Source of the DNA: an uncultured Gemmatimonadota bacterium
GTDB lineage: Bacteria; Gemmatimonadota; Gemmatimonadetes; Gemmatimonadales; Gemmatimonadaceae
NCBI GenBank assembly: GCA_946479015.1
Contig: CAMLEQ010000006.1
Location: forward strand, 1 to 31,950
Direction: 5' to 3'
Length of the DNA: 31,950 bases
The notes under the pieces are model-generated. The model did not search any database. It saw only the letters and a program-made list of their open reading frames with translations, and was not told where the DNA came from. The position numbers and the translations under genes are program-made. Shown one piece after another: positions 600 to 15,390 of the stretch. Numbering within the stretch: position 1 is the first letter of the stretch; the number at the start of each line of letters is the position of its first letter.

Positions 600-641
600 G
601 CACACCGCCCCGCGTCGCCTACCCGACGCGGGGCGGTGTGC
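600..641 (+). terminator. Hairpin 3' of gyrA, probable transcription terminator
   Basis: Bases 600-617 pair perfectly with 624-641 (18 bp, mostly G/C) around the 6-base loop CCTACC. It begins 18 bases after the gyrA stop. No T-tract follows (the next bases are ATCGTGGGG), so it is not a textbook intrinsic terminator. A Rho-assisted terminator or an mRNA 3'-end stabiliser is equally possible. Confidence 0.6.
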
Positions 642-667
642 ATCGTGGGGGGGGTGTGTAGAGGATG

Positions 668-838
668 GACCACCGAACAACGCGTGTGGCGTGTGGGGGA
701 CTGACGGGAAGAGGAGGGAGGTAGAGCGCGTGTAGGACCGGATGTAGAGAGAGTCCGCCTACACACGAAGCTACACGCGCCGTACCCATCTCCTCTTTCC
801 GTCAGTTCCCCACACGCCACACGCGTTGTTCGGTGGTC
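668..838 (+). repeat. 171-bp near-palindromic element, copy A
   Basis: Two 68-base arms (668-735 and 771-838) are reverse complements at about 62 of 68 positions, separated by a 35-base asymmetric centre (736-770). The outermost 31 bases of each arm pair perfectly. A second copy lies at 15201-15371 in the opposite orientation, shown both by the centre and by arm-specific differences. The element fills most of the gap between the gyrA hairpin and the threonine dehydratase gene. It carries no credible gene: both strands are open, but this follows from base composition and symmetry. It could be a non-autonomous mobile element (MITE or REP-like) or a structured RNA. I see no clear target-site duplication. 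Confidence 0.9.
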
Positions 839-911
839 TACCCCCCAGTTCCTGGAACCCCCCGAGGCCCGACGCCTTGGTCAGTTCTCACCCACCCCTC
901 CCCGCCCACCC

Positions 912-937
912 CACTGGCGCGAACCGCGGCGCCAGTG
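912..937 (+). promoter_or_regulatory. Leader hairpin just upstream of threonine dehydratase
   Basis: Bases 912-920 (CACTGGCGC) pair perfectly with 929-937 (GCGCCAGTG) around an 8-base loop, ending 11 bases before the chosen ATG at 949. It overlaps the place where a ribosome-binding site would be expected, and no Shine-Dalgarno sequence is seen there. A role in translation control is possible but not shown. Confidence 0.3.
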
Positions 938-948
938 CAGAGTCCAGC

Positions 949-1944
949 ATGTCCACGTCGACTCCCTCCGCCACCGTGTCTCCCGTCCTCGTCACCCTCG
1001 CCGACCTCCACGCCGCCGCCGCGGTGCTCAGGGGGGTGGCCGTCCGCACGCCGCTCCTCCCCGCCGATGACCTGGCCGAGGAGCTCGGGAGCGAGGGGAT
1101 CTGGCTCAAGCCGGAGATGCTGCAGCGCGGAGGGGCGTTCAAGTTCCGTGGGGCGTACCTCTTCCTCTCGCGACTCGGCCCGGAGGAGCGGGCGGCCGGC
1201 GTGGTGGCGCCGTCGTCGGGGAATCACGCGCAGGCCGTCGCGCTCGCGGCGCGGCTGCTCGGCGCGCCCGCCACGGTGGTGATGCCCACCACCGTCACCC
1301 CGGCCAAGCGGGCCGGCGCTGAGCGGCTCGGCGCCCGCGTGGTGCTCGCCGGCACCACCACCGCCGACCGCATGGAGCGCGCGCTCCAGCTCATGGAGGA
1401 GGAGCAGCTCACCCTCGTCCCCCCGTACGACAACCGCACCATCATACTCGGGCAGGGGACGGCGGGGCTGGAGATCGCCGAGGACCTCCCCGATGTGGGG
1501 ACGGTGCTGGTGCCGGTGGGGGGAGGCGGCTTGAGCGCCGGCGTGGCGGCGGCGGTGAAGCTCCTCGTCCCCTCGGCCCGGGTGATCGGGGTGGAGCCCG
1601 CCGGCGCGCCGAAGCTCACGCGCGCCCGGCGGCACGGCGCCCCCGTCCGCCTGGAGCGCACCGCGAGTCTCGCGGACGGCCTCCTCGCGGTGGAGATCGG
1701 CGCCATCCCCTTCGCTCACCACCAGGCATTCATCGACGACGTGGTGCTGGTGGAGGATGCGGCACTCCCCGGCGCGATGCGGTGGCTGCTCGACCGCCTC
1801 AAGGTGGTGGCCGAACCGAGCGGCGCGATCACCGTCGCGGCGCTCCGCGAGGGGCTCGTGCGTCCAGTGGGGAAGACGGTGGCCGTGCTGAGTGGCGGGA
1901 ACATCGAATGGAACGGCCTGCGCGAGCTGCTCGGAGATGGATAG
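949..1944 (+). CDS. Threonine (serine) dehydratase, PLP-dependent fold type II
   Basis: A 331-residue enzyme that deaminates L-threonine to 2-oxobutyrate (and L-serine to pyruvate) with pyridoxal phosphate. Family motifs are clear: the PLP-lysine segment GGAFKFRGA (K65), the substrate loop SSGNHAQA (about 89-96) and the phosphate-binding glycine loop VGGGGLSAG (about 190-198). There is no C-terminal ACT domain, so the length matches the short catabolic TdcB-type or serine racemase-like enzymes rather than long IlvA. The frame stays open upstream to an ATG at 826, but those 41 residues come from repeat copy A and a proline-rich stretch, so ATG 949 (MSTSTPSATVSP) is preferred. It is the first gene of a six-gene run and overlaps the next by 8 bases. 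Serine racemase or threo-hydroxyaspartate dehydratase activity cannot be excluded. Confidence 0.88.
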   Translation: MSTSTPSATVSPVLVTLADLHAAAAVLRGVAVRTPLLPADDLAEELGSEGIWLKPEMLQRGGAFKFRGAYLFLSRLGPEERAAGVVAPSSGNHAQAVALAARLLGAPATVVMPTTVTPAKRAGAERLGARVVLAGTTTADRMERALQLMEEEQLTLVPPYDNRTIILGQGTAGLEIAEDLPDVGTVLVPVGGGGLSAGVAAAVKLLVPSARVIGVEPAGAPKLTRARRHGAPVRLERTASLADGLLAVEIGAIPFAHHQAFIDDVVLVEDAALPGAMRWLLDRLKVVAEPSGAITVAALREGLVRPVGKTVAVLSGGNIEWNGLRELLGDG

Positions 1945-3412
1945 AGCGAGGATCCTGATCGCCGATGAGGACGAGGTCCTCACGCGCACGGTCAGCTGGC
2001 TGCTGAAGGAGCAGGGCTACGACGTGGCCGTGGCGCCGCGGAGCGAGCGCGTGCTCGACACGCTCGCCTCTCACCAGCCGGACCTCCTGCTGTTCGATGT
2101 GCAGATGCCCGGCGGCGATGGCTACGAGATGCTCCGCCGCATCAACGCCGACGAGCGCTGGCGCGACATGCCGGTGCTCGTCGCCTCGGCGCTCCGCGCC
2201 GAGGAGGCCGCATCGCAGCTCGTGACCCTCGGCGCCACGGACTTCATCAGCAAGCCGTTCCACGTCCGCGAGCTGCTGGCGCGCATCCGCGTGCAGCTCC
2301 GGATCCGCCAGGAGCTCCTCCACGCGCGCTCCGCCCTCCGTTCCACCGAGGTGCAGCTCGAGCGCGCGCGCGCCGAGGCGGAGAGCCGGCGCAAGATGGT
2401 GGACATCCTGCACGAGGTGACGGGCGACTTCTCGTCGGAGGAGCTGTACCACATCCTGGTGCGGCGCGTCGCCCGCGCGCTCGACATCTCCCACTGCTCG
2501 CTCGTGCTCGCGCGCCCGGGAGACGAGGTGGGCGTGGTCGCCGCGGCATACGAGGCGCCGGGGCTCACGCATCTGGAGATCCGCCTGGAGCGCTATCCGG
2601 AGATCCGCGCCGCGCTGGAGACGGCCGAGCCGGTGCTCATCGAGGACCTGGACTCGAGCGCGCTGTACAACGAGGTGCGGCTGGACTGGGCGGTGAGCGG
2701 CACGATGGTCCCCTTCCGCTCCGTGATCGCGCTCCCCTTCCGCCTGGATGGCGAGCGCGCCGGGGTGATCTTTCTCCGCACGCTGCTCGATGAGCCGCCG
2801 CTCGGCCGCTCCGACGTGGAGTTCGCCGAGACGGTGGTGCGCGCCGCGGTGGCGGCGATCCGGCGGGCGCAGGTGATCGAGAGCACGCGCGCCGACAAGG
2901 CGCGGCTGGAGGTTTTGGCGCTCACCGACCCGCTCACGCAGACGCACAACCGGCGGGCGCTCATGGAGCGGCTCACCGCCGAGCTGGAGCGCGCGCGCCG
3001 GTATGCGCTCCAGCTCTCCCTGCTCATGGTCGATCTCGATCACTTCAAGGCCATCAACGACACCTACGGCCACGTGGTGGGGGACGAGGTGCTGCGGAGC
3101 GTCGCGCGCACGCTCCAGCGCGAGGCTCGCGCCGTGGACGTGGTCGCGCGCTACGGCGGGGAGGAGTTCGTGGTCATCCTCCCGGAGACGCCCGAGGAAG
3201 GGGCGGTGTCGCTGGCCGAGCGCATCCGCGCGCGCGTGGGGGACGCGCTCCCCATCTCCGCCGGCGAGTACGGCTGGCTGAACGTGACCGTGAGCATCGG
3301 CGTCGCCACCATCCCGTCACCGCGGGTGAACTCACCGGAGGAGCTGATCGCCCTCGCGGACGAGGCGCTCTATCGCGCCAAGGCGCAGGGGCGCAATCGG
3401 GTGTGCACGTGA
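1937..3412 (+). CDS. Response regulator with GAF and GGDEF domains (diguanylate cyclase)
   Basis: A 491-residue cytosolic signalling protein predicted to make c-di-GMP from two GTP. Order of parts: receiver domain at about 4-120 with phospho-acceptor D54 and conserved K106; a short helical linker (about 125-155); a GAF-like domain (about 155-305); and a C-terminal GGDEF domain (about 325-491). The active-site motif is GGEEF at 407-411, a fully active form. An RxxD autoinhibitory I-site (398-401) stands exactly five residues before it, so product inhibition is expected. The ATG at 1937 lies inside the end of the threonine dehydratase gene (8-base overlap), implying translational coupling. The stop overlaps the kinase start as GTGA. 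No cognate histidine kinase is adjacent. Confidence 0.93.
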   Translation: MDRARILIADEDEVLTRTVSWLLKEQGYDVAVAPRSERVLDTLASHQPDLLLFDVQMPGGDGYEMLRRINADERWRDMPVLVASALRAEEAASQLVTLGATDFISKPFHVRELLARIRVQLRIRQELLHARSALRSTEVQLERARAEAESRRKMVDILHEVTGDFSSEELYHILVRRVARALDISHCSLVLARPGDEVGVVAAAYEAPGLTHLEIRLERYPEIRAALETAEPVLIEDLDSSALYNEVRLDWAVSGTMVPFRSVIALPFRLDGERAGVIFLRTLLDEPPLGRSDVEFAETVVRAAVAAIRRAQVIESTRADKARLEVLALTDPLTQTHNRRALMERLTAELERARRYALQLSLLMVDLDHFKAINDTYGHVVGDEVLRSVARTLQREARAVDVVARYGGEEFVVILPETPEEGAVSLAERIRARVGDALPISAGEYGWLNVTVSIGVATIPSPRVNSPEELIALADEALYRAKAQGRNRVCT

Positions 3413-4545
3413 GCACCCGCTGTCCCGCGTGCGGCGCGGAATATCCCGCCGACGCGCGCTTCTGCCCGCGCGACGGCACCAGGCTGGAGCCAGTGGCCGC
3501 ACCAGGTGCCGATGCCGCGCCCCCGCCGTCGCACGCGCGCGTGTTCGAGTCGATCTCCCCCGCCGAGGCGCGCGCGACCACGCCGCGCCTCGGCGGCGCC
3601 GCGCCGCCGTTCACGCCGCCGGTCGACGTCGCCCGCCTCCCGGGGCAGGTGCTCGATGGACGGTACCGCGTGACGCGGAAGATCGGCGAGGGGGGAATGT
3701 CCTTCGTGTTCCTCGCGAGCGATGCGAGCACGGGAGAGAACGTCGCGATCAAGCTCCTCTCGCCATCGCTCATCCGCGACCGGAACGCGATGGCCCGGCT
3801 GCGCCGCGAAGCGGAGCTGGGAGGGCGGCTCGCGCACCCGAACGTGTGCCACATCATGCGGCTCGGCGAGACAGCGCAGGGGCTCGTCTACGTGGTGATG
3901 CCCTTCATCGAGGGGGAGCTGCTCTGCGACCGCAACATCCGCCTCGGCCAGCTCCCGCTCGACGTGACCACGCGCTTCGTGTCCGACATCGCCGCCGGGC
4001 TGCACGTGGCGCACGCGCTGGGGATCATCCACCGCGACCTCAAGCCCGAGAACATCATGATCTGCCGCCGCCCCGACGGCTCGGAGCACGCGGTGGTCAT
4101 GGACTTCGGGCTCGCCAAGGAGCGCCAGCTGGGGCCCGAGGTGCAGAAGCTCACCGCGACCGGCATCGTGCTCGGCACGCCGGAGTTCATGAGCCCGGAG
4201 CAGCTCCGCGGGAAGACGCTCGATCCGCGCACCGACATCTACTCCCTCGGGCTCATGGCGTGCGAGATGCTCACCGGGCAGCTCCCGTTCACCGGACGCA
4301 CCCAGCAGGACGTGATGCTCGCGCGGCTGAAGAGCGAGCCCACCCCCATTCGCGCCGTGCGCCCCGACCTGCACTTCCCCGCGGCGGTGGAGCAGGTGCT
4401 GCTGAAGAGCATGCACCGCGATCCCGACCACCGCTATCGCACGGCGCCGGAGTTCGCCGCGGCGCTGGCGGACGCGGCCGCCGGCGGGAGCGGCGGGGAG
4501 GGCCCCTCCGCCTCCGCGTTCCTGGACCGCCTGCTCCGTCGCTGA
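3409..4545 (+). CDS. Ser/Thr protein kinase (Hanks type) with N-terminal zinc-ribbon-like motif
   Basis: A 378-residue soluble kinase. The N-terminus has CPACG (C5, C8) and FCPRDG (C19), a zinc-ribbon pattern in which the usual fourth cysteine position is aspartate. A proline/alanine-rich linker leads to the catalytic domain (about 85-355). That domain has the glycine loop GEGGMSFVF, the ATP lysine K115 (VAIK), the catalytic loop HRDLKPEN (208-215), DFG (232-234) and the SPEQLRG segment after the activation loop. No transmembrane segment or extracellular sensor is present, unlike PknB-type kinases, so it acts in the cytoplasm. The start is taken as GTG 3409, whose GTGA overlaps the preceding stop. 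An in-frame GTG at 3403 would add only two residues. Coupling to a diguanylate cyclase regulator is notable; substrates are unknown. Confidence 0.93.
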   Translation: MSTRCPACGAEYPADARFCPRDGTRLEPVAAPGADAAPPPSHARVFESISPAEARATTPRLGGAAPPFTPPVDVARLPGQVLDGRYRVTRKIGEGGMSFVFLASDASTGENVAIKLLSPSLIRDRNAMARLRREAELGGRLAHPNVCHIMRLGETAQGLVYVVMPFIEGELLCDRNIRLGQLPLDVTTRFVSDIAAGLHVAHALGIIHRDLKPENIMICRRPDGSEHAVVMDFGLAKERQLGPEVQKLTATGIVLGTPEFMSPEQLRGKTLDPRTDIYSLGLMACEMLTGQLPFTGRTQQDVMLARLKSEPTPIRAVRPDLHFPAAVEQVLLKSMHRDPDHRYRTAPEFAAALADAAAGGSGGEGPSASAFLDRLLRR

Positions 4546-4550
4546 GCATT

Positions 4551-4583
4551 GCCGGGGGGTGGCCCTCGGGCCACATTCCCGGC
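4551..4583 (+). promoter_or_regulatory. Two-tier stem-loop abutting the E1 alpha start codon
   Basis: An inner stem (GTGGCC 4559-4564 with GGCCAC 4569-4574) sits inside an outer stem (GCCGGG 4551-4556 with CCCGGC 4578-4583). The outer stem ends exactly at the ATG at 4584. No Shine-Dalgarno sequence is evident. The fold could attenuate read-through from the kinase gene or limit initiation of the next gene. Function is inferred only from position. Confidence 0.35.
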
Positions 4584-5723
4584 ATGAAGCGGCACCAGCC
4601 CTTCGAGCCCGCCGAGTACGTCGCGTGGACGCGTGACGAGGGGGCGATGCGCGAGTACCGCGACACGCTCGAACGCGATGCCGCGCGGGCGCGCGTGATC
4701 GAGGGGCTCGACATCGCCGCGCTGCTCGACCTCTACAAGGGACTCGTGCGCAACCGTCTCACGGACATCGCGCTCAAGCGGCTGGTGCGCCAGGGCGTGG
4801 TGTCCAAGGCGTGGCTGGGCACCGGGGAAGAGGCGACGACGATCGGCCCCGTGCACGCGCTCCGGCGGACGGAGCCGCGCGACGTGGTGGCGCCGATGAT
4901 CCGCAATGGCGGCGCCTGTCACGAGATGGGGATGCCGGTGGCGGACATGATGCGCGCGTACATGGGCACGGGCGATGGCCCATCCCACGGGCGCGATGGG
5001 CACTACGGCGACCTCTCGAAGGGGATCCTCCCGCCGATCAGCCACGTGGGAGACATGGTCCCGGTGGTGACGGGGATCGCGATGTCGCTCCGCATGCGGG
5101 GCACCGACGGCGTGGCGATGACGTGGATCGGCGATGGCAGCACCAAGGCCGGCGTCACGCACGAGGGGCTGAACCTCGCCGCCGTGCGCCGCGCGCCGGC
5201 GGTGTTCATCATCCAGAACAATCAGGTGGCGCTCGGGACGCGGCTCGCGCAGCACCACCTGGGCGCGGACGCGCGCGCCTTCGCCGACTGGCCGGCGGCG
5301 TACGGCGTGTGGGGCGGGGTGTTCGATGGGAACAACGTGCTCGATGCGTACGCGCTGGCGGTGCTCGCCGTGGAGCGGTGCCGAAGGGGAGAGGGCCCGT
5401 GCATCCTCGTGGCCGAGACGTTCCGCATGGGCGGCCACGCCACGCACGATGAGGCCGAGGCCCGGCGCACCTTCGACGCGGCGCTCTTCGAGCGCTGGGG
5501 GCGGCGCGATCCGATCGCCCTGTACGAGGAGTACCTGACGGAGCGAGGCATCGCGCGCGATGCGCTGGCGGCGGCGGAGCGGGAGGTGGAAGGGGAGGTG
5601 GAGCGCGCGGAGGCGGAGGCGCTGGAGAGCAGGGGGCGGCGGATGCCGGCGGGGGAGAGCGCCCTCGCCGGCGTGTACGCCGACGGGGGCCACGGAGTCC
5701 ACCCATCCCGGAGGTCATCGTGA
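4584..5723 (+). CDS. 2-oxoacid dehydrogenase E1 component, alpha subunit (TPP-dependent)
   Basis: A 379-residue thiamine-pyrophosphate enzyme subunit related to pyruvate, acetoin and branched-chain 2-oxoacid dehydrogenase E1 alpha. The TPP/magnesium motif begins with GDG at 183-185 and ends with NN at 212-213, about the usual 30-residue spacing. The HGRDGH and HVGDMVPVVTGIAMS segments match the substrate/cofactor region. It would decarboxylate a 2-oxoacid and pass the acyl group to an E2 lipoyl domain. An E1 beta subunit is normally adjacent, but none lies in this window, so the partner must be elsewhere. Threonine dehydratase in the same operon supplies 2-oxobutyrate, which E1 enzymes can use; this link is inferred. 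Its stop overlaps the next start (GTGA). The exact substrate cannot be told from sequence alone. Confidence 0.88.
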   Translation: MKRHQPFEPAEYVAWTRDEGAMREYRDTLERDAARARVIEGLDIAALLDLYKGLVRNRLTDIALKRLVRQGVVSKAWLGTGEEATTIGPVHALRRTEPRDVVAPMIRNGGACHEMGMPVADMMRAYMGTGDGPSHGRDGHYGDLSKGILPPISHVGDMVPVVTGIAMSLRMRGTDGVAMTWIGDGSTKAGVTHEGLNLAAVRRAPAVFIIQNNQVALGTRLAQHHLGADARAFADWPAAYGVWGGVFDGNNVLDAYALAVLAVERCRRGEGPCILVAETFRMGGHATHDEAEARRTFDAALFERWGRRDPIALYEEYLTERGIARDALAAAEREVEGEVERAEAEALESRGRRMPAGESALAGVYADGGHGVHPSRRSS

Positions 5724-6871
5724 CGTCCATCGTGCTCGCGAGCGCCACCGCGCTGTGCGTGGCGGCGCAGGCGTGTGCCGGCGGCCGGGAGCCGTCGCAG
5801 CCGCCGCCTCCGGCGGACTCGCTGAGCGCGCGCCTCGTGCTCCCCCCAGGGTTCGAGGTGGCGTACTTCGCGCGCAATGTGCCCGTGCGCTTCATGGCGC
5901 TCGGTCCCGACGGCGCCGTGTACGCGAGCGAGCCCGGGAACGGGCGCGTGGTCCGCATCTGGGACGAGGATGGCGACGGCGTGGCCGACAGCACCGTGAC
6001 GGCGGTGGACGGGCTCGACCACCCGCACGGTCTCGCCTTCCACAAGGGCTATCTCTACATCGCCAACACCGGCGGCGTCGCGCGTGCGCGCCTGGACGAG
6101 CACGGTCGCGCGGTCGGCTCCCCCGAGCGGGTGAATGCCTTCGAGGGGGGCGGAGGGCACTGGACGCGGAGCATCGCGTTCGGTGCCGACAGCGCGATGT
6201 ACGTGAGCATCGGCTCCACGTGCAACCTGTGCGCGGAGTCCAATCCGGAGCGCGCGTCCGTGATGCGGTTCGACGAGGACGGCGCGAACGGGCGCGTGTA
6301 CGCGTCGGGGCTCCGCAACGCGGTGGGGATCGCGGTCGACCCGGCGACGGGGGAGCTCTGGGTGTCGCAGAACGAGCGGGACAACATCCCCCCGGACCAT
6401 CAGGACCTTCCGCCGGAGGAGATCAACATCCTGCGCGATGGAGGAGACTACGGGTGGCCGTACTGCTACTCGCTGCACGGACGCCCGGTGCCCTCCCCCG
6501 ACATGCGGGGCGCGAGCGATGCGCGCTGCGCCGCGACCATCCCCGCCGCGCTGGAGATGCAGGCGCACTCGGCGCCGCTCGGCATGACCTTCCTCGACCG
6601 GGCGACGAACTTTCCCGCGGACTGGCGCGGCGACCTGCTGGTGGCGTTTCACGGATCGTGGGACAGGGACACGCCCACCGGCGCGAAGGTGGTGCGGGTG
6701 CGCGTCTCCGGGGGGAAGCCGGTCTCGTACGAGGATTTCGTGACCGGTTGGCAGCTCTCCGACGGGAGCCGGTGGGGACGCCCGGTGGACGTGATGGTGT
6801 ACCGGGATGGCTCGGTGCTCATCTCCGACGACGCCGGCCGCGCGATCTACCGGGTGTACAGGAAGCAGTGA
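5720..6871 (+). CDS. Sorbosone dehydrogenase-like / PQQ-dependent sugar dehydrogenase family protein, secreted
   Basis: A 383-residue predicted beta-propeller of the glucose/sorbosone dehydrogenase family, normally a periplasmic quinoprotein oxidising sugars or sugar aldehydes. An N-terminal hydrophobic stretch followed by ACAGG (Cys near residue 19) suggests export, perhaps as a lipoprotein, although the lipobox is weak. Family features include LPPGFEVAYFARNV at the mature N-terminus, repeated propeller strands (LDHPHGLAFHKGYLYIAN, GLRNAVGIAVDPATGELW), NILRDGGDYGWPYC and FHGSWDR. The start is GTG 5720, preceded by a strong GGAGGT and overlapping the E1 alpha stop by four bases. Many family members have unknown substrates and some may not bind PQQ, so the reaction is tentative. 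No PQQ biosynthesis gene is present here. Confidence 0.85.
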   Translation: MTSIVLASATALCVAAQACAGGREPSQPPPPADSLSARLVLPPGFEVAYFARNVPVRFMALGPDGAVYASEPGNGRVVRIWDEDGDGVADSTVTAVDGLDHPHGLAFHKGYLYIANTGGVARARLDEHGRAVGSPERVNAFEGGGGHWTRSIAFGADSAMYVSIGSTCNLCAESNPERASVMRFDEDGANGRVYASGLRNAVGIAVDPATGELWVSQNERDNIPPDHQDLPPEEINILRDGGDYGWPYCYSLHGRPVPSPDMRGASDARCAATIPAALEMQAHSAPLGMTFLDRATNFPADWRGDLLVAFHGSWDRDTPTGAKVVRVRVSGGKPVSYEDFVTGWQLSDGSRWGRPVDVMVYRDGSVLISDDAGRAIYRVYRKQ

Positions 6872-7863
6872 TGCCGCGGCCAGCGATCTGGATCGCGCCG
6901 CTCTGCGCGGCGCTGCTCTCGGTGGCGTGTCGCGATGGCGTGCGTCGCCAGTCCTCCCGCGCCCCCGAGGTTCGCGTCATCCACCTGGAGCAGGAGACGC
7001 GGAGCGGGATGACCGCCCGGGTGCGGTGGGCGCTCTCCCCCGATTCCTCCGCGATCCTGCTGATGGAGGACCCGGCGGGGGTGGAGATGGATCCGGTGCC
7101 CAACGCCTTCATCCTCGCGCGCGAGGGGTGGGGGACGGTGCGCGACGATGCCGCGTGGGACGTGGCCCCCTCACCCGACTGGCGCTGGCTCGCGTGGGGG
7201 CGCGCGTACCTGGTGATGCCGGCCAACGGGGACTCGGTGAGCGACTCGGCGTGGCGCTCGCTCGCCGGAGTGGTGGGGCTGGACGCATCGCTCCTCGAGC
7301 GGGGCTCCTTCCCGGCGAGCGGGATGTCCATGGCCCGCGGGTTCGCGCGCCCGGTGGTGGCCTCCATAGCGGAGGGGGCGGCCCCCGCGGGCACGGCGCG
7401 CGCCCTCGATCTCGCGGGAGGATGGCGCGTGCGCTGGTCGGGGGACACGCTCGCGGCGTTCGGCGCGCGCCCCGTGCGCGCGGTCGACGATGCCGCGCCG
7501 GTCTCGTGGACGCTCGTGGACCCGCGCACCGGGCGCGATGCGATCGAGGCACGCGACAGCGCCGCGCTCTCCCAGGTGGCGTGGACGGAGGGGCCGCTGC
7601 TGGACATCGCGGTCCCCCTCGACCTTCGCGCGCCGCGCACGATCGTGACCAGCCGCTGGCGCTTCGAGAGCCGCGACGGGGTGCTCGCGGTGGCGCCCGC
7701 CGCGGGGGGCGCGTCGCGGGCGATCGGCCCCGCGCTCCCGCTCGCGGCCACGCGCTCGGGGACCTACCTCGCGGCGCTCGTCCCCCGGCGCAACGCCGAG
7801 GAGCACGACCGCACCGAGGAGCTGGTGATGCTGGAGCTGCGGGGAGGAGGGGGAGGGAAGTGA
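6871..7863 (+). CDS. Hypothetical lipoprotein
   Basis: A 330-residue protein I do not recognise. It begins MPRPAIWIAPLCAALLSVAC, a signal peptide ending in a relaxed lipobox (SVAC, Cys20), so it is probably a lipoprotein at the cell surface or in the periplasm. The body is rich in Trp, Asp and short beta-strand-like segments (WALSPDSSAILLMEDP, VAPSPDWRWLAWGRAYL), resembling a WD40/propeller-like fold, but no catalytic motif is visible. It ends in a glycine-rich tail. The ATG shares its first base with the last base of the preceding TGA (TGATG), so it is translationally coupled to the dehydrogenase and may assist or anchor it. It is the last gene of the operon that starts at 949. Confidence 0.8.
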   Translation: MPRPAIWIAPLCAALLSVACRDGVRRQSSRAPEVRVIHLEQETRSGMTARVRWALSPDSSAILLMEDPAGVEMDPVPNAFILAREGWGTVRDDAAWDVAPSPDWRWLAWGRAYLVMPANGDSVSDSAWRSLAGVVGLDASLLERGSFPASGMSMARGFARPVVASIAEGAAPAGTARALDLAGGWRVRWSGDTLAAFGARPVRAVDDAAPVSWTLVDPRTGRDAIEARDSAALSQVAWTEGPLLDIAVPLDLRAPRTIVTSRWRFESRDGVLAVAPAAGGASRAIGPALPLAATRSGTYLAALVPRRNAEEHDRTEELVMLELRGGGGGK

Positions 7864-7889
7864 CGGCGCGGCGCCCGGGAGTGCGCCGT
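7863..7889. terminator. Possible bidirectional hairpin between convergent genes
   Basis: ACGGCGC (7863-7869) pairs perfectly with GCGCCGT (7883-7889) around a 13-base GC-rich loop. It lies exactly between the stop of the + strand operon (7863) and the stop of the convergent - strand gene (7894). There is no T-tract. Position is the main support. Confidence 0.35.
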
Positions 7890-7893
7890 GACG

Positions 7894-8907
7894 CTACAGC
7901 TCCACCACGATCTCCCCGCGCCGCGCGTCGAGCGTCCACTGCCCGCCGCGCAGGTAGCGCTGCACGTCGGGGTGGCCGAGCGGAAAGAGCGTCCCGGACT
8001 TGATCACGTAGACGCCGGTCTCGTTGGTGAGCGTCGCGATCCGCCAGCCGCGCGCATCGGCGGGAACGCGCCCGCTCGCGCGGAGCAGCAGTCTCCCCGC
8101 GCCCGGCTCGAAGGTGGGCGCCAGCCGGCCGAGCACATCGAGGCCGAGCAGCACCTCGTCAGGCGCGCGCAACGGGCGGAATGCCGCTGGCACGTTCGTG
8201 AGCGCGTAGTCCCCCAGCCGCGCCTCCGGCACCACCGCCGCCATGCGCCGCGGGTCGCGCTCCCCGCGCGACGCCCAGTGGCGCACGTCCGCGCGGTGCA
8301 GCCACGAGGTGTCCACCACCAGCCCCTGCACGCGCGCATCGATCGTCGCGTCCACGGTGTCGCCGCCGATCGCCAGCCGGACGCGCCCCAGCAGGTGGCT
8401 GTCGCTCACCTCGAGCGGCACGAACGCGGAGTCGGGACCGGCCGCTCCGGGAGGATGATCGCGCAGCCACTCGGCGCGCACCCGTTCGGCGTAGGGCAAT
8501 GGCGAAGCGGGCAGGGAGGCCAGGGCGCCGTACTCGCCGAGCCGCGCGTACACGGGAGCGAGCTCCCGCGCCACGACGCCGGGATCGCCGCCGAAGTAGC
8601 GCGCCTCCTCCATGAGCACCGCGCCGACCTTCAGCGCCCCGCGCTCCGCCAGATACTTCCCGAGGGCGAGCCGCGCCTCCGGGTTTCGTGGGTCGATGCG
8701 GACGGCGTAGTAGTACAGCGACTCGGCGGAGAAGATGCGCCCCGCCAGGAGGAGCGTGTCCGCCCGGGCGACGATCTCCTGCGCCCCGGCCGCGCGAGCG
8801 GCCAGCGCCACGAGAACCGCCGCGCCCCACGCGAGGCGCCCCCGGCGCGCGCGGACGCGAGAGGGGGCGGATGGCCGGAGCGGGAGCGTCGAGGGGGAGC
8901 GCGGCAT
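7894..8907 (-). CDS. Secreted TPR / retropepsin-like aspartic-protease-like protein
   Basis: About 337 residues from ATG 8907. An arginine-rich N-terminus followed by a hydrophobic helix ending AARAAGAQE looks like a signal peptide. Residues about 45-130 resemble tetratricopeptide repeats (AESLYYYAVRIDPRNPEARLALG and the following helices). The C-terminal half recalls retropepsin-like (clan AA) folds: VVDTSW at the place of the D-T-G/S motif and LLGLDVLGRL like the hydrophobic-Gly-Asp motif after it. The active-site loop is atypical, so proteolysis is uncertain and it may be a non-catalytic relative. A GTG at 9003 would overlap the upstream stop as GTGA, a pattern common in this window, but the extra 32 residues look non-coding, so 8907 is preferred with doubt. 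It probably forms an operon with the gene at 9000-9461. Confidence 0.65.
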   Translation of the reverse strand: MPRSPSTLPLRPSAPSRVRARRGRLAWGAAVLVALAARAAGAQEIVARADTLLLAGRIFSAESLYYYAVRIDPRNPEARLALGKYLAERGALKVGAVLMEEARYFGGDPGVVARELAPVYARLGEYGALASLPASPLPYAERVRAEWLRDHPPGAAGPDSAFVPLEVSDSHLLGRVRLAIGGDTVDATIDARVQGLVVDTSWLHRADVRHWASRGERDPRRMAAVVPEARLGDYALTNVPAAFRPLRAPDEVLLGLDVLGRLAPTFEPGAGRLLLRASGRVPADARGWRIATLTNETGVYVIKSGTLFPLGHPDVQRYLRGGQWTLDARRGEIVVEL

Positions 8908-8999
8908 CGGGTGGGAGACGGTGACGGGCGAATCGCGGAGCCTGCACGGCTTACAGGGGGACGCGGCGCCGCGCCGGCTCGTAACGCGCTCCCGGCCGC

Positions 9000-9461
9000 T
9001 CACATCCCGATCCGGCGCATCTCCACCATGAGGCAGCGGTCCTGCACCACCTGGATCCCCGCTCTGGCGAGCGCCTCCGCCGCCTCATCGTTGCGGATCC
9101 CGAGCTGGAACCACACCGCCCGTGGGCGCTTGGCGAGGATGTCCGGGACGTGCGGCGGGATGTCCTTCGGGCGCCGGAACACGTTCACCAGATCCACCTC
9201 GCCGGGAACGTCCACGAGGCGCCGGTACACGCGTTCGCCGAGGATCTCCGTGACCTCGGGGAAGTAGACCGGCACGGGCACCACCTCGAGCCCCGCCATC
9301 TGCACGTACTCCGGGACGTAGAACGCCGGCTGCCCCGTCCATTCGGTCTTGATGCCGAGCACCGCCACGCGACGCGTCCGCTCGAGGAGCGCGCGGATCT
9401 CTTCCGGACTCTCCAGCAGATTGCGGCGCCACTCGCCGGTGTCGCGTGGTCTGGCGGTCAT
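9000..9461 (-). CDS. CoA-binding domain protein (YccU-like)
   Basis: A 153-residue protein of the small CoA-binding (Rossmann-type) family. The N-terminal segment RVAVLGIKTEWTGQPAFYVPEYVQ matches the nucleotide-binding strand-loop of the family. VPVYFPEVTEILGERVYRRLVDVPGEVDLVNVFRRP and VWFQLGIRNDEAAEALARAGIQVVQDRCLMVE follow the canonical order of family motifs, ending with the conserved D-R-C-L segment. The family is related to the CoA-ligase domain of succinyl-CoA synthetase but lacks the catalytic parts; its physiological role is not established. It is divergently transcribed from the reductase gene at 9579 across a 117-base gap that must hold promoters for both. Its stop lies just ahead of, or overlaps, the next - strand gene. 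Confidence 0.88.
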   Translation of the reverse strand: MTARPRDTGEWRRNLLESPEEIRALLERTRRVAVLGIKTEWTGQPAFYVPEYVQMAGLEVVPVPVYFPEVTEILGERVYRRLVDVPGEVDLVNVFRRPKDIPPHVPDILAKRPRAVWFQLGIRNDEAAEALARAGIQVVQDRCLMVEMRRIGM

Positions 9462-9532
9462 GTGGTCGAGAGAGATGCCAGGATCGTGCGCGGTGAGTCC
9501 CGCAGGGTGACCTCCGAGGCTCCGGCGGGTTA

Positions 9533-9554
9533 ACTTTCGGGCTCTTCCGAAAGT
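9533..9554 (+). promoter_or_regulatory. Perfect inverted repeat in divergent promoter region
   Basis: ACTTTCGG (9533-9540) pairs with CCGAAAGT (9547-9554) around the loop GCTCTT, less G/C-rich than its surroundings. It lies between the divergent genes at 9461 and 9579, seven bases before the AAGGAGA ribosome-binding site. It may be a repressor operator or a leader hairpin. No cognate regulator is adjacent. Confidence 0.4.
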
Positions 9555-9578
9555 GCCCGGTACAAGGAGAACTCGTTC

Positions 9579-10721
9579 ATGCGCATGCTCGTTCTGGGAG
9601 CGGGGCTGCAGGGGTCGGCCTGTGCCTACGATCTGCTGCAGAACCCCGATGTCACCGAGGTCCGTCTCGCTGACCTGAACATCACCCACCTGCCCGACTT
9701 CCTCGCGCCGTACTCCGGGAAGCGGCTCATCCCCACGCACCTCGACGTGCGCGACCGCGAGGCGGTGCTCGCCGTGATGCGGGAGAGCGATGCGGTGATG
9801 AGCGCGATCCCCTACTACTTCAACCTCGACATGGCCAGGTGCGCCGTCGAGGCGGGGACGCACTTCTGCGATCTCGGCGGCAACACGGAGATCGTGTTCC
9901 AGCAGCGCGAGCTCGAGGGGAAGGCCAGGGAGAAGAACATCACCGTCGTGCCCGATTGCGGGCTCGCGCCGGGGATGGTGAACATCCTCGCGCAGCACGG
10001 GATCGAGCAGCTCGACGAGGTGAAGTCGGTGAAGATCTACGTGGGCGGGTTGCCGCAGCACCCGGAGCCGCCGCTGAACTACCAGATCGTGTACTCGCTC
10101 GAGGGGGTGCTCGACTACTACACGACGCTGTCGTGGGTGGTGCGCGACGGGAAGCGCGCGAAGGTGAAGGCGCTGTCGGAGCTGGAGACGGTGGACTTTC
10201 CGCAGCCGGTGGGGGCGCTCGAGGCGTTCCACACGGCGGGCGGCCTGTCGACGATGGCGTTCCGGTACGAGGGGAAGATCCCGACGATGGAGTACAAGAC
10301 GCTCCGCTATCCGGGGCACGCGCACATCATGGAGGCGATCCGCGAGCTCGGGCTGCTCGATCTCACCCCGGTGGATGTGAAGGGGGTGAAGGTGGTGCCG
10401 CGCGACGTGTTCGTCGCCACCGTCGGCCCGCGGCTGACGAAGCCCAAGGGGCGCGACCTGGTGGCGTTGCGCGTGATCGTGGAGGGGACGAAGGACGGGA
10501 AGGCGAAGAAGCTCGGGTGGGAGCTCCTCGACTACTACGACGAGGCTCGCGGGATCAGCGCCATGATGCGCACCACCGGCTATTCGCTCTCGATCACGGG
10601 GCAGATGCAGGCGCGGGGTGAGGTGAAGCCCGCCGGCGTGCACACGCCCGACGAGTGCATCCCCGCGGTGCCGTACATCACGGAGCTGGAGAAGCGGGGG
10701 ATCAAGATTCGGAGCATGTGA
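9579..10721 (+). CDS. Saccharopine dehydrogenase family NAD(P)-dependent reductase
   Basis: A 380-residue oxidoreductase. It opens with the Rossmann motif MRMLVLGAGLQGSACAYDL (GxGxxG-type dinucleotide binding), then the second strand ending in acidic D33 (VRLADL). VMSAIPYYFNLDMARCAVEAGTHFCDLGG and VVPDCGLAPGMVNILA are characteristic of the saccharopine dehydrogenase / lysine 6-dehydrogenase-like group. The family acts on amino-acid-derived imines, for example saccharopine or related lysine-pathway intermediates; the substrate here is not determined. A strong ribosome-binding site AAGGAGA (9564-9570) lies 8 bases before the ATG. The gene is transcribed alone, bounded by the divergent promoter region and by the hairpin at 10782. 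Confidence 0.87.
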   Translation: MRMLVLGAGLQGSACAYDLLQNPDVTEVRLADLNITHLPDFLAPYSGKRLIPTHLDVRDREAVLAVMRESDAVMSAIPYYFNLDMARCAVEAGTHFCDLGGNTEIVFQQRELEGKAREKNITVVPDCGLAPGMVNILAQHGIEQLDEVKSVKIYVGGLPQHPEPPLNYQIVYSLEGVLDYYTTLSWVVRDGKRAKVKALSELETVDFPQPVGALEAFHTAGGLSTMAFRYEGKIPTMEYKTLRYPGHAHIMEAIRELGLLDLTPVDVKGVKVVPRDVFVATVGPRLTKPKGRDLVALRVIVEGTKDGKAKKLGWELLDYYDEARGISAMMRTTGYSLSITGQMQARGEVKPAGVHTPDECIPAVPYITELEKRGIKIRSM

Positions 10722-10767
<46 letters not shown>

Positions 10768-10781
10768 TGGGATACGGAATT

Positions 10782-10819
10782 GCGACGGGGGCTGCGGCAC
10801 ATGCCGCAGCCCCCGTCGC
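10782..10819. terminator. Strong bidirectional hairpin between convergent genes
   Basis: Bases 10782-10799 pair perfectly with 10802-10819 (18 bp as written, realistically 17 with a 4-base loop), mostly G/C. It lies between the convergent stops of the reductase (10721) and the carboxypeptidase (10873). The + strand side is followed by moderately T-rich sequence (GTTCCTTGTTCGTGGTGTT), so it should end transcription best from the + strand and probably serves both. Confidence 0.75.
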
Positions 10820-10838
10820 GTTCCTTGTTCGTGGTGTT

Positions 10839-10870
10839 CCCGCGCCCCGCACCCCGCGTCCCGCGTCCCG
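10839..10870 (-). repeat. Heptamer array, right arm (inverted)
   Basis: Read on the - strand this stretch has CGGGACG, CGGGACG, CGGGGTG and CGGGGCG units, the same heptamer family as 10722-10763 in inverted orientation. It ends two bases before the stop codon of the carboxypeptidase gene. Confidence 0.7.
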
Positions 10871-10872
10871 TT

Positions 10873-12504
10873 CTATCTCACGAATCCCGCCAACGTCGCC
10901 CCCATCGCGTCGATGGTGCTCTTCGCGTTCCAGCGGTCGGTGCCGTTGTAGATGAACGCGAAGGCGAGCAGCTCGCCGTCCCGAGCGGTGACGTAGCCGC
11001 CGAGGGAGATCACGGTGTTGGTGGTGCCGGTCTTGGCGTGGAGGTTTCCCTGGGCCGGCGTGTACTTCATGCGGCGGCGCAGCAGCTCCGACTCGCCGGC
11101 CACCGGAAGGGAGGCGTGGAAGGCGTCTCCCCAGGGGGCGTGGTGCGCGTACGAGAGGAGCTGCACGAGCGAGCGCGGCGTCACGTGGTCGAGCACGGAG
11201 AGGCCGCTGCCGTCGGCCGCGAACACCGAGCCGGGTGCGGCGCCCACCTTCTCGGTCATGAAGCGCTGGAGGAGGCGGCTCCCGGTCTCCACCGAACCGA
11301 CGGCGGTCGGGGACGCATGGCGTCCCGCGTCGCGGAAGAGCAGTTCCGCGTAGTGATTGATGCTCTCCCGGTTCATGGCCGAGATGAGACGCGCGAGCGG
11401 AGGCGAGGCGAGCGAGGTCACGCGCGCGGCGCCCGCGGGAGTGGCGGCGAACTGCGTGGGACCGTCCACGCTGATCCCGCGCGCCGCGAGCGCGCGGCGG
11501 AAGGCGCCGGCGGTGAACGCGGTGGGGTCCTCCACCACCAGCTCGTAGCGCTTCTCCCCGGCGCGGGCGCCGATCCACCCGCGCACGTCGATGGTGCCGT
11601 TGGAGGTGGTGTGGGCGAGCACGCGGGCGCCGCTGCCGCCGGTGGTCCGCACGTTCGCCGAGAGCGGGATGTCGGTGGCCGGCTCGAGGGTGACCACCGC
11701 CTTCCCGTTGCGGCCGGGCGTGACCACCACCCACACGAGGTTCTCGTTGAGCGACAGCGCCGAGACGCGCGCCGCGTAGCCGGACTGCAGGTAGCGCGAC
11801 TGCCACCCCTCGGGGATGCGCTGCGTGTCGAACGCGCTCGCGTCGGCGATGAGCCGCCCGGTCACGTGCTTCACGCCGGCGCCGGCCACGAGCTGCGCCA
11901 GGAGGTCCATCGACGCGCCGGGACCGCCATCGAAGAAGCGGGGGGAGAGCGCGGGGTCGCCATCGCCGCGCAGGATCAGGTCCCCGTGCAGCGTGCCATC
12001 GGGGCCGAGCGTGCCGGCCCGCAGGACATCCGTGCTGAACTGGTGGTTCTCGCCGAACTGGTCGAGGGCGATGGCCGTGGTGAACAGCTTCATGTTCGAC
12101 GCCGGCTGCATCGCGGAGTCCGGCGCGTAGTCGAACAGCGTGTCGCCGCGCGAGAGCGAGACCACCATGACCCCCCACTTCCCGCTGCGCACGCGGCTGA
12201 AGAGCATCGAGCGGAGATCGCCGGTGAGCGCGTCCTCGCCGCGAGGGGTGGTATAGCGCGGGGCGGCCGGCGCGGCCGCGCGGACATGCCGGAGCGTGCG
12301 GCGGCGCGTGCCGCGCCGCGTCCTCGTCGTCGCGGCGTGCGCGGGGCGCGACGCCCCTTCGGCCGCCGGGGCCGCGGCGTCCGGGCCGCTTCCGGCATCC
12401 CCCTGCGCCGCGGCTGTGCCGAGCGGCACGCAGAGGATGGCGGCGACGGCGAGCGCCGCGAGGCGGGCGCGCGAACGGGCGAGCAGCGGCACGATCACAG
12501 ACAT
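10873..12504 (-). CDS. dacB: D-alanyl-D-alanine carboxypeptidase/endopeptidase, PBP4 (class C, DacB) type
   Basis: A 543-residue periplasmic penicillin-binding protein predicted to trim or cleave peptidoglycan peptides. All three active-site motifs of the serine-peptidase S13 family are present: SNMK (S136, K139), S-I-N (381-383) and KTG (491-493). The N-terminus (MSVIVPLLARSRARLAALAVAAILCVPLGTAAAQ, two adjoining parts) is a signal peptide, followed by about 60 low-complexity Ala/Arg/Thr residues before the catalytic domain. The long insert between SxxK and SxN is typical of PBP4. ATG 12504 is chosen because it gives a proper signal peptide; the frame is open further upstream to 12633 but that part looks non-coding. 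It lies 162 bases downstream of the acyltransferase gene and a hairpin, so it probably has its own promoter. Confidence 0.92.
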   Translation of the reverse strand: MSVIVPLLARSRARLAALAVAAILCVPLGTAAAQGDAGSGPDAAAPAAEGASRPAHAATTRTRRGTRRRTLRHVRAAAPAAPRYTTPRGEDALTGDLRSMLFSRVRSGKWGVMVVSLSRGDTLFDYAPDSAMQPASNMKLFTTAIALDQFGENHQFSTDVLRAGTLGPDGTLHGDLILRGDGDPALSPRFFDGGPGASMDLLAQLVAGAGVKHVTGRLIADASAFDTQRIPEGWQSRYLQSGYAARVSALSLNENLVWVVVTPGRNGKAVVTLEPATDIPLSANVRTTGGSGARVLAHTTSNGTIDVRGWIGARAGEKRYELVVEDPTAFTAGAFRRALAARGISVDGPTQFAATPAGAARVTSLASPPLARLISAMNRESINHYAELLFRDAGRHASPTAVGSVETGSRLLQRFMTEKVGAAPGSVFAADGSGLSVLDHVTPRSLVQLLSYAHHAPWGDAFHASLPVAGESELLRRRMKYTPAQGNLHAKTGTTNTVISLGGYVTARDGELLAFAFIYNGTDRWNAKSTIDAMGATLAGFVR

Positions 12505-12642
12505 GACGACGGGCACGGAAGGGGCGACTCGAGATCCACGCCCGGCACCTGGGGCGTGTGACGACACCGGCCGGCGTCCACGGCTTCTACGGGACGGGAC
12601 GCTGGGTCGTTTCGCGGCGGCGCCGGGGCACATGCTTCACGA

Positions 12643-12664
12643 GCGTGACCGCCAATGGTCACGC
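12643..12664 (-). terminator. Hairpin 3' of the HGSNAT-like gene
   Basis: GCGTGACC (12643-12650) pairs perfectly with GGTCACGC (12657-12664) around a 6-base loop. On the - strand it starts two bases after the stop codon of the gene at 12667. There is no T-tract, so it may be Rho-assisted. Confidence 0.5.
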
Positions 12665-12666
12665 CC

Positions 12667-13941
12667 CTACAGCTTAATGACGATTTTCCGCTGGTACAGT
12701 CCCCACATCAGCGCGAGAAAGAGGAGCACGTAGCAGACGGCGAAGAGGAGCGAGGCGTCGCGCGGCGCCAGCCACGACGCGAACGCCGACTGGTAGATCG
12801 CCGACTCCACCGGCACCATCGTACCTCCACGGGGCACCCGCACGAGGGTGTAGATGAGGCGGGAGAAGAGCCCCTCCCCCACGAACGCCGCCAGCGGGTT
12901 GAGCCCGAACACGACGAACGGCTTCGTCCACCATGTCACGTGCTCGATGTCGATCAGCCACATGCAGGTGGCGAGCGTGACGCTGGCGAGGCCGCCGGTG
13001 AGCAGCACGTAGGAGCTGGTCCAGAGATTCTTGTTGACCGGGAAGGACCACCCCCACATCAGTCCGGCCACGATCGCGATCGCGCCCACGCCATGGAGCG
13101 CTGCCACGCGGGAGAGGAGCGGGCGGTCGGCGGCGATCCAGCGGCCGGCGAGCACGCCGAGCATGCAGGTGGCGATCGCGGGGAAGGTGGAGAGGATCCC
13201 TTCCGGATCCCATGTCCGCGATCCGGCCCACATGTGGTTCGTCCCGAACACAGCGCGGTCCAGCCAGGCGGCGAGCGTGAGGCTGTGGTCCGGGGCGCTG
13301 AGCACGGCCGCCCCGATCAGGCCGTGGCCGGGCACAGGAATCAGCGTCATCACGAACCAGTAGCCGAGCAGCAGCCCCGCGACGATCGCCACCACCCGCT
13401 TCACCGGGGCGCGCAGGGTGAGGAGCGCGGCGCAGACGTAGGCGACGCCGATGCGCTGGAGCACGCCGGTGAAGCGCCAGTGCGCGAGCCCCAGGTGGGG
13501 GGTCACCGAATCGAAGCGCGCGCCGAAGGGGAGGGGGAGGATGAACTCGTGATAGGGGAGCCCCGAGAGCAGGAGCCCCACGAGTACGATCATCCCCCCG
13601 CGCTTCAGGATCTGGAGAACGATGTCGCGGTCGCTCGCCCCGCGCGCGCGGCGCGAGGAGAGCGAGAGGTGCGTCGTGATCCCGACGATGAACAGGAAGA
13701 AGGGGAAGATCAGGTCCGTCGGGGTCCACCCGTTCCACGCCGCGTGCTCGAGCGGGGGATAGATTGCGCCCCACGTTCCCGGATTGTTGACGAGGAGCAT
13801 CCCGGCGATCGTGAGTCCCCGGAAGACGTCGAGAGAGACCAGCCGCTCGCGCACCCGGGTGGGGGCGACGGTGCTCTCCGGCGTGGAGAGCGGTGTGGCG
13901 GGGGCGCCGGAGAGCTCCCCGGGGCGCAGCGTGGTGGTCAC
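12667..13941 (-). CDS. HGSNAT-like membrane acyltransferase (DUF5009/DUF1624-type)
   Basis: A 424-residue multi-spanning inner-membrane protein with roughly ten hydrophobic segments. The first carries the family hallmark [20 protein letters not shown], followed by [16 protein letters not shown], as in bacterial relatives of heparan-alpha-glucosaminide N-acetyltransferase. These are thought to transfer acetyl groups across the membrane to glycans; the bacterial substrate is unknown. The start is GTG 13941, whose GTGA overlaps the stop of the upstream lipoprotein gene. About 20 residues of Thr/Pro/Ser-rich sequence precede the first membrane helix. Translational coupling to the small lipoprotein suggests a shared envelope role, and a cell-wall carboxypeptidase gene follows. 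A general acyltransferase-3-like role cannot be ruled out. Confidence 0.85.
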
Positions 13942-14447
13942 GACACGTGCTCCTCTTCGGTGCGCATCAGGCCCCACTGCCCGTCGTTGCAGTGGAACCA
14001 GATGGTGCGCGATGGTGCGACCTGGCCGTCCTCCTTCCCGCCGACGAAGCGGCCACCGAAGCGGATCGCCGCGCTGTCGCGGTCCACGGCGCCTCCCCCA
14101 CGGTAGAGCACGAGCAGGGTGGGCCATTCACCCTTGCTCTTCAACATGGCGCGGACCTTGGCCCGAAGCGCCGTGTCGGGCGGAAAGAGGAAAGTCGGTC
14201 CCGCGTTCTGGAGCGCCTCACGGCCGGCGTCGGGGAGAGCGGAGTCCCCCGACGTGACGACGAGGAAGCGCTGTGGGCGCGGGGTGATGTTCCGAAGATA
14301 GGCACTGGTGGCCGCGGCCAACTCGGCGTCGGTTGGAGCGGCACAGGCGATGACGACGGCTCTGGGCGTCGCCTCCGAGGACCGGCCGCAGGCCGCGGCC
14401 AGGAGGAAGGCGAACGCGGCCGTGCTGCGCGCGACGTTGCGTGACAT
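13938..14447 (-). CDS. Small hypothetical exported protein or lipoprotein
   Basis: A 169-residue protein, not recognised. MSRNVARSTAAFAFLLAAACGRSS (in two parts: a basic start, then a hydrophobic core ending AAAC, Cys20) is a likely lipoprotein signal. Residues about 30-110 contain a hydrophobic strand (AVVIACAAP), helices and FLVVTSGDSALPDAGREAL, a pattern vaguely like a thioredoxin or periplasmic-binding fold. A conserved-looking C-terminal part includes TLLVLYRGGGAVDRDSAAIRFGG and IWFHCNDGQWGLM. No catalytic motif is identified. The ATG at 14447 is chosen for the signal peptide; AGGA lies directly before it. Its stop overlaps the start of the HGSNAT-like gene (GTGA). The 223-base gap on its 5' side is shared with the divergent gene at 14671 and contains a GGCGGCC/GGCCGCC hairpin (14600-14616). 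Confidence 0.7.
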   Translation of the reverse strand: MSRNVARSTAAFAFLLAAACGRSSEATPRAVVIACAAPTDAELAAATSAYLRNITPRPQRFLVVTSGDSALPDAGREALQNAGPTFLFPPDTALRAKVRAMLKSKGEWPTLLVLYRGGGAVDRDSAAIRFGGRFVGGKEDGQVAPSRTIWFHCNDGQWGLMRTEEEHVS

Positions 14448-14670
14448 TCCTGATTCTTGCACCGCCGAGCGGATTTGTCGAGCCCGTTCTCCGCGCCTTT
14501 CGGGGAGTCTGCGGGCTAGGCAACCGCCAGCGCCCGCCACAGATTGGGATGGACCGTCGCGCACCGCCCTGGCGCGCGCGACCCCTCCGAGGGCATTCCG
14601 GCGGCCACCGGCCGCCTGTGGATCGTGTGCAGGTGGGTTACCCGATCAACCCGTGCTGGAGGGTCATGGC

Positions 14671-15162
14671 ATGCCACAGCGGCACAGCATCACGCGTGAG
14701 GGGGTCATCGCGGGGATCATCGGCGCCACGAGCGTCGCGATCTGGTTTCTCGTGGTGGACGCGCTGGCGGGCCACCCGCTGTTCACCCCCACGGTGCTGG
14801 GGACCGCGGTGTTCAGCGTGTTCGGCGACACCACGCGCGACGGCGCCATCTTCCACGTGCTGTTCTATACCGTGATCCACTACGCGGCGTTCATCGTCGC
14901 CGGGATCGTGGTGTCGTACGTGGTGCACCGCGCGGAGACGGAGCCCTCGGTGCTGGTGGTGTTCACGCTCCTGTTCATCATCTTCGAGCTGGGCTTCTAC
15001 GGCTTGGCGGCGATGCTCGCCGAGACGGAGCTGCGGTCGCTCGCCTGGTACCAGATCGCGGCCGGCAACGTGCTGGCGGCGCTCCTGATGGGGGTGTACA
15101 TGTGGCGGACGCACCCGGCGCTGCGACAGGAATTCGCGCACGCGTTGGGAGGGGATGAGTAG
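14671..15162 (+). CDS. Four-helix integral membrane protein of unknown function
   Basis: A 163-residue membrane protein with four hydrophobic segments: about 10-32 (GVIAGIIGATSVAIWFLVVD), 60-84 (HVLFYTVIHYAAFIVAGIVV), 92-115 (VLVVFTLLFIIFELGFYGLA) and 124-146 (WYQIAAGNVLAALLMGVYMW). Short charged termini and a His/Arg/Glu loop (VHRAETEPS) lie between them. I do not recognise a named family; the layout resembles small conserved membrane proteins found near respiratory genes, and the cytochrome oxidase operon lies immediately beyond, on the other strand. GGAGG at 14658-14662 lies 8 bases before the ATG and fixes the start. It is a single gene; repeat copy B lies between it and ctaG. Confidence 0.78.
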   Translation: MPQRHSITREGVIAGIIGATSVAIWFLVVDALAGHPLFTPTVLGTAVFSVFGDTTRDGAIFHVLFYTVIHYAAFIVAGIVVSYVVHRAETEPSVLVVFTLLFIIFELGFYGLAAMLAETELRSLAWYQIAAGNVLAALLMGVYMWRTHPALRQEFAHALGGDE

Positions 15163-15200
15163 CGGGGCGGAGGCTGGGGGATTGTAGGACATAGTGGCTG

Positions 15201-15371
15201 GACCACCGAAGGACGCGTGTCGCGTGTGGGGAACTGACGGACAGAGTGGCGAGGTACGGCGCGTGTGGGTACGTGTGTAGGTGGACTCTCTCTACAGCCG
15301 AGCCTACACGCGCCGTACCTCCCTCCTCTGCCCGTCAGTCCCCCACACGCCACACGCGTTTCATGGTGGTC
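15201..15371 (-). repeat. 171-bp near-palindromic element, copy B (inverted relative to copy A)
   Basis: Arms 15201-15268 and 15304-15371 are reverse complements at most positions, with a 35-base centre (15269-15303). The centre matches the reverse complement of the centre of copy A, sharing CGTGTGTAGG and GGACTCTCTCTACA, so this copy is turned round. Weaker complementarity continues outward about 20 bases on each side (15180-15200 with 15372-15392, about 15 of 21 matched). The element therefore reaches the stop codon of ctaG at 15391-15393. It lies 3' of both neighbouring convergent genes. There is no coding content. Confidence 0.9.
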
Positions 15372-15390
15372 TACCCACCAGGTCCTAGAT

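Follow-up and report, generated by a model that had tools for sequence, protein, structure and literature searches.

What kind of element is a palindrome of about 200 bases that occurs twice, in opposite orientations, between the genes of one bacterial contig? We addressed this question for positions 1 to 31,950 of contig CAMLEQ010000006.1 (assembly GCA_946479015.1), which derives from an uncultured member of the Gemmatimonadaceae; this whole stretch is referred to below as the window. A preliminary description had reported two inverted copies of a 171-bp element with unusually long arms. On balance we favour the view that both copies were inserted long ago and represent a small palindromic mobile element, non-coding and non-autonomous, which resembles miniature inverted-repeat transposable elements (MITEs) and whose build comes nearest to that of YPAL from Yersinia.

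The window contains two inverted copies of a long palindromic element

Alignment and folding place the two copies, designated A and B, as follows.

663..863, + strand: copy A (core 668-838), its outer edges placed to within about 15 bases
668..735, + strand: left arm of copy A
736..770, + strand: asymmetric centre of copy A, with 29 of its 35 bases common to copy B
771..838, + strand: right arm of copy A
15176..15376, - strand: copy B, inverted relative to copy A (core 15201-15371)

Copy A and the inverted copy B align without gaps across 201 bases (663-863 against 15176-15376) with 83% identity, and the longest identical run between them is 30 bases. Their alignment score of 236 compares with a maximum of 27 among 500 shuffles, and the likeness is far above chance. 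In the 171-base register, the left arm of A matches the reverse-complemented right arm of B at 61 of 68 positions, and the right arm of A matches the left arm of B at 58 of 68. The arms alone do not prove the orientation, because the left arm of A matches the right arm of the same copy equally well (61 of 68). The inverted orientation is established by the asymmetric centre, together with a few arm asymmetries common to both copies; the local alignment score is 269 for A against the reverse complement of B and 229 for A against B read forward. These results confirm the positions and orientation reported earlier. The reported length of 171 bp holds for the core, with its arms of 68 bases and centre of 35 bases, whereas the homology reaches further, over about 201 bases.

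The likeness beyond the core arms is uneven and becomes weaker outward, while that between the two arms of copy B continues to approximately position 15386. With two copies only, the edges of the element are uncertain by about 15 bases. Terminal arm complementarity extends over 85 bases in A (84%) and 116 bases in B (75%). The G+C fraction is 0.63-0.64 in the element and 0.70 in the window. When every position of the window was scored with a sequence model built from the four arms, these arms scored 87.6-94.5 bits. The next-best match, at 11.7 bits, lies at 10105-10178 within a saccharopine dehydrogenase-like open reading frame (ORF), and no third copy was seen in the window.

The flanks of the two copies are unrelated

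To the left of copy A the window ends after 640 bases, which were compared along with 1000 bases of each of the other three flanks. None of the eight flank comparisons scored above its own shuffled maximum. A segmental duplication of the element with its neighbours, named beforehand as an outcome that speaks against a dispersed family, is ruled out, the flanks of the two copies being unrelated.

Copy B ends in GATT-G-TAGGAC ... GTCCTA-GATT, so that GATT stands on both sides with one additional base on the left. This GATT may represent a target duplication of 4 bases, or the terminus may be of a TA type; neither is seen at copy A. An IS630-type TA target, for which TAGGAC...GTCCTA at copy B was considered, is not supported at copy A. 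The tetramer GTAG is found directly outside a common GACCACC on two of the four arms (A-right and B-right); on A-left and B-left it lies at a greater distance and out of register.

Both copies form a single long hairpin, with arms that have changed almost independently

Copy A (655-860) folds into one long hairpin of -153.3 kcal/mol (z -20.1), as does copy B (15180-15392, minus strand) at -155.1 kcal/mol (z -15.9). For neither copy was any of 200 shuffles equally stable, and the hairpins are very stable on both strands. The palindrome is nevertheless imperfect, the longest unbroken Watson-Crick run in register being 31 pairs long in copy A and 16 pairs long in copy B. Among 78 pairs, two G-T pairs and one mismatch occupy the same places in both copies. 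Since these asymmetries and the asymmetric centre are common to the two copies, the palindrome was copied whole.

Divergence between the copies amounts to about 12% in the core arms and 17% over the 201 bases. Fifty-three of the 68 core pairs are unchanged and 13 are altered in one arm only. Both members are altered in 2 pairs; independent change of the arms predicts 1.03. In one of these 2 pairs the change is compensatory (A-T versus C-G at 709/797) and in the other it is not. The arms have changed almost independently since the copies parted, which looks like decay and not like selected pairing. There is no sign that selection, or correction of one arm by the other, has maintained the pairing, although the test has small power. 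As an alternative, a selected RNA structure is not supported, given that 13 of the 15 changed pairs are one-sided and one is compensatory. Among the one-sided changes in the 68-pair core, those favouring G-U pairs on the A-minus/B-plus strand outnumber the opposite by 6 to 1, by our reading, numbers too few to use.

One block of the arms is unusually conserved between the copies; its two sides in copy A are as follows.

680..708, + strand: conserved block of the left arm, partner 798-826
798..826, + strand: conserved block of the right arm, partner 680-708

This 29-pair block has one difference in 58 bases, compared with 16 in the remaining 78 arm bases. A scan over blocks of at least 8 pairs matched this degree of conservation in 25 of 1000 permutations. 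The block may represent a putative protein-binding site.

Both copies lie between genes

The genes and gaps next to the two copies are listed below.

69..581, + strand: 3' part of gyrA (DNA gyrase A C-terminal repeats), upstream of copy A, with its stop at 581
600..641, + strand: terminator-like hairpin behind gyrA, a perfect GC-rich stem of 18 pairs with no T run, about 20 bases before copy A
949..1944, + strand: threonine/serine dehydratase-like pyridoxal phosphate enzyme, located downstream of copy A (with an inferred start codon; ORF listed as 826-1944)
14308..15162, + strand: ORF assigned to no Pfam or NCBIfam family; ends just before copy B; codon-position G+C of coding type
15163..15390, no strand: convergent-gene gap of 228 bases, nearly all of it copy B
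15391..16278, - strand: ctaG (cytochrome c oxidase assembly factor), ending at copy B, with a C-terminus like that of its relatives

Both copies are intergenic: A follows gyrA, and B sits between two convergent genes, directly behind ctaG. When the copies are placed in their common orientation, each follows one of these genes in sense, A after gyrA and B after ctaG. Without the 201 bases of copy B, the flanking stop codons would be about 30 bases apart. The C-terminus of CtaG ends approximately level with those of eight relatives, to within a few residues and with P0132 somewhat different, in a comparison that also contained the window's own database entry. Judged by these sequences, ctaG is not truncated by copy B. 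The hairpin at 600-641 is probably a terminator. A scan of positions 400-1200 returned no intrinsic terminator with a T run, and copy B, inspected by eye only, has no T run. Cytochrome oxidase subunit II of the window is 88% identical to that of a Gemmatimonadaceae metagenome-assembled genome (MAG), and CtaG is 80% identical, in agreement with an origin of the window in this family. By eye, the C-terminal end of the product of ORF 14308-15162 resembles a membrane protein.

The absence of a nearby transposase, also remarked on in the preliminary description, was borne out to the extent that Pfam recognised no transposase family in 30 scanned ORFs, out of 115 ORFs of at least 100 amino acids in the window. 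Likewise, the ORFs scanned include no recombinase family and no Y1 transposase domain or REP-associated tyrosine transposase (RAYT; REP, repetitive extragenic palindrome). Those genes between the copies to which Pfam and NCBIfam give a name have roles in metabolism, the cell wall and signalling.

No relative of the element was found in the collections searched

Searching 84,980 species genomes for an exact core pattern, consisting of the 18 fixed bases found in all four arms, returned 6 stretches, against about 7 expected by chance on a base-counting estimate. The element itself was at none of the six, whose likeness hardly exceeds the pattern. Comparison of the full element with the six genomes behind these stretches gave weak matches (E ≤ 1) in four, the best with 19 identical bases and the longest covering 43 bases at 77%. 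There was no blastn match to the element among plasmids and phages, and none by DNA or by the arm model in the 1.04-Mb plasmid 2 of Gemmatirosa kalamazoonensis. In viral contigs, pattern scans for the element retrieved 86 stretches, none of them the element; a translated-element probe returned 29 pattern stretches and host COX1 matched one, with none confirmed in either case. Applied to 77 retrieved loci, the arm model gave 8 matches up to E 10, each on the pattern that had fetched the locus (best 18.9 bits, E 0.00058). With the same default filters it gave no match on the other 16 loci, and blastn of A and B against all 93 loci produced nothing longer than 30 bases. These negative results bound the conservation of the exact core and are silent on copy number in the host genome, no Gemmatimonadota chromosome having been reached. 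The element is probably lineage-restricted. In literature searches judged by titles and the opening lines of abstracts, we found nothing on palindromic repeats or miniature elements in Gemmatimonadetes, Gemmatimonas or Gemmatimonadota.

That dispersed hairpin families can be detected within a genome by the tool used here is illustrated by one of the six stretches from the species genomes. This stretch, from a Roseomonas MAG (L001), borders an unrelated dispersed hairpin that was found in its own genome at 40 listed places including itself (40 of 77 candidates scored). At L001:400-560 this long hairpin lies between convergent ORFs, a setting like that of copy B, and its other listed matches have 75-97% identity.

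One reading frame is open through the element in three of four readings. No protein relative of this frame was found at E ≤ 0.001 among 284 candidates, and a small protein was ruled out on this ground. Rfam gave no match above the gathering score in the window. Permissive thresholds gave 21 and 18 matches, nearly all to microRNA precursors and all below the cut-off (for example, 86.7 against 168 bits), and these were rejected as scores that any long hairpin would give.

Origin of the two copies

We propose that an enzyme encoded elsewhere recognised the arms of the element, perhaps through the conserved 29-base block, either as duplex in one of the arms or in an extruded hairpin. Such an enzyme would have moved or copied the unit into gaps beside gene ends, where it would be least harmful, and after insertion the copies would have decayed. 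An inserted element would passively provide flanking transcripts with a very stable 3' hairpin that could block exonucleases or aid the stop of transcription. This role is most plausible at copy B because the convergent-gene gap holds little else; by position alone, the hairpin there may act as a 3' barrier for both convergent genes. A bolder version of the proposal, which we regard as speculative and rather improbable, is a mobile palindrome restricted to the Gemmatimonadaceae whose hairpin, with a recognition block inside the arms and not at the tips, is the substrate of a trans-acting enzyme, and which spreads to gene 3' ends despite a length at which hairpin nucleases begin to act.

Several observations weigh against insertion of a mobile element. 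Only two copies were seen in the 31,950 bases, and the family dispersed through the genome that the preliminary description suggested would be an extrapolation from these two copies in 32 kb. The 30 scanned ORFs show no transposase family. No relative turned up in any of the collections searched, which left no empty site for comparison. There is no clean target-site duplication, GATT flanking copy B only and copy A having none, with the boundaries uncertain. Finally, the 17 differences in the core arms leave little power to test for selected pairing.

The most serious competitor, although an unlikely one, is a functional transcript-end element, in which a long hairpin is selected as a two-way terminator or as a stabiliser of mRNA 3' ends and the second copy arose by a rare duplication. 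The stability of the hairpins on both strands, the position of copy B in the convergent-gene gap and the sense placement of the copies behind gyrA and ctaG in a common orientation are what such an element would show. The changes between the copies point the other way, since 13 of 15 are one-sided, mostly making or breaking a pair, and one is compensatory. Moreover, gyrA has a hairpin of its own at 600-641, no intrinsic terminator was found in the scanned region, copy B has no T run by eye, and a bias in orientation is not provable from two copies. We consider it quite improbable that the copies are instead what is left of a larger transposon, its two long terminal inverted repeats (TIRs) having been joined by loss of the transposase gene. 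Long arms flanking a short centre would suit this origin, and passages of PMC3733652 describe transposases of the REP-associated type with long TIRs and moderately abundant TIR families. Both copies share the same 35-base centre, however, and the 30 scanned ORFs yielded no transposase family. Because the centre is common, any deletion must have preceded copying, and a relic of this kind then merges with the mobile element that we favour.

Two further possibilities seem to us very remote. As recombination sites, the copies would invert or bound the intervening 14.3-kb segment, and their opposite orientation and 30-base identical run would be in keeping with this; yet they have diverged by 17%, the scanned ORFs include no recombinase family, and the enclosed genes that could be named have metabolic, cell-wall or signalling functions. 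We give as little credence to a pair of paralogous genes for a non-coding RNA or a small protein: the frame that is open in three of four readings has no protein relatives, the Rfam search at gathering thresholds was empty with all permissive matches below their cut-offs, and the changed pairs form no compensatory pattern.

Comparison with known palindromic elements

The following comparisons draw on passages of the papers cited. YPAL, also called RU-2, is an intergenic Yersinia palindrome of about 168 bp that is not A+T-rich and is dispersed as units (PMC2229807, PMC2267715). Its targets span or adjoin dyad symmetry (PMC2229807, PMC2267715), and a YPAL model matched 101 sequences in Y. pestis, 68 of them complete (PMC2267715). 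The element described here is likewise an intergenic palindrome, with a core of 171 and a whole of about 201 bases, the likeness being one of build only. Copy A lies about 20 bases behind the dyad of the gyrA hairpin, while no separate dyad was seen at copy B. The two differ in that 101 sequences are recorded for Y. pestis against two copies in this window, in a host of a different phylum. In addition, the inverted repeats of YPAL are described as internal, whereas the arms of the present element take up almost its full length.

MITEs such as ERIC, Correia/NEMIS and RUP are small and intergenic, have inverted ends and are regarded as non-autonomous (PMC2229807). With its 201 bases, terminal inverted repeats, intergenic location and lack of coding capacity, the element resembles them. 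It differs in having arms of at least 68-85 bases in place of a short terminal repeat, and in lacking a clear target duplication or a known parent transposase.

GTAG REPs measure 20-40 bp, bear the tag GTAG and are associated with RAYT genes (PMC3733652, PMC3116915). As in a REPIN, an inverted pair forms a hairpin outside genes (PMC3116915, PMC3733652). The element is not a GTAG REP or REPIN as these are defined in passages of PMC3733652 and PMC3116915, because of the excessive length of its arms and because only two of the four carry GTAG in the same position; with at least 68 bases, the arms exceed those of typical REPs, as had been remarked from the outset. By description only, the element also recalls the TIRYT-associated long TIR repeats, or TIRtrons, which are long inverted repeats in moderately abundant families (PMC3733652). 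It differs from them in that no tyrosine transposase gene was seen among the ORFs scanned in the window.

Dispersed palindromic repeats have been described in several phyla. If the family is confirmed, the present element would add a phylum and a longer arm to them. A confirmed family would further make it possible to study how cells tolerate natural palindromes of about 200 bases: according to passages of PMC3315005, SbcCD in E. coli cleaves an interrupted palindrome of 246 bp but not, during replication, one of 85 bp. Our best reading is that the palindromic element itself is new and that its kind, a MITE- or YPAL-like palindromic insertion, is already known. Two decayed copies are evidence enough for a modest significance only.

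Repeat arrays in a second convergent-gene gap

Between the two copies, the gap at 10722-10870 separates the convergent saccharopine dehydrogenase-like gene and a PBP4-like gene (minus strand) and carries repeat arrays. A tandem array of the heptamer GCGGGAT occupies 10729-10767 with 5.6 copies. It is followed at 10839-10870 by 4.6 copies of CCCGCGC, which are largely complementary to the GCGGGAT array, and by eye there is a hairpin between the two arrays.

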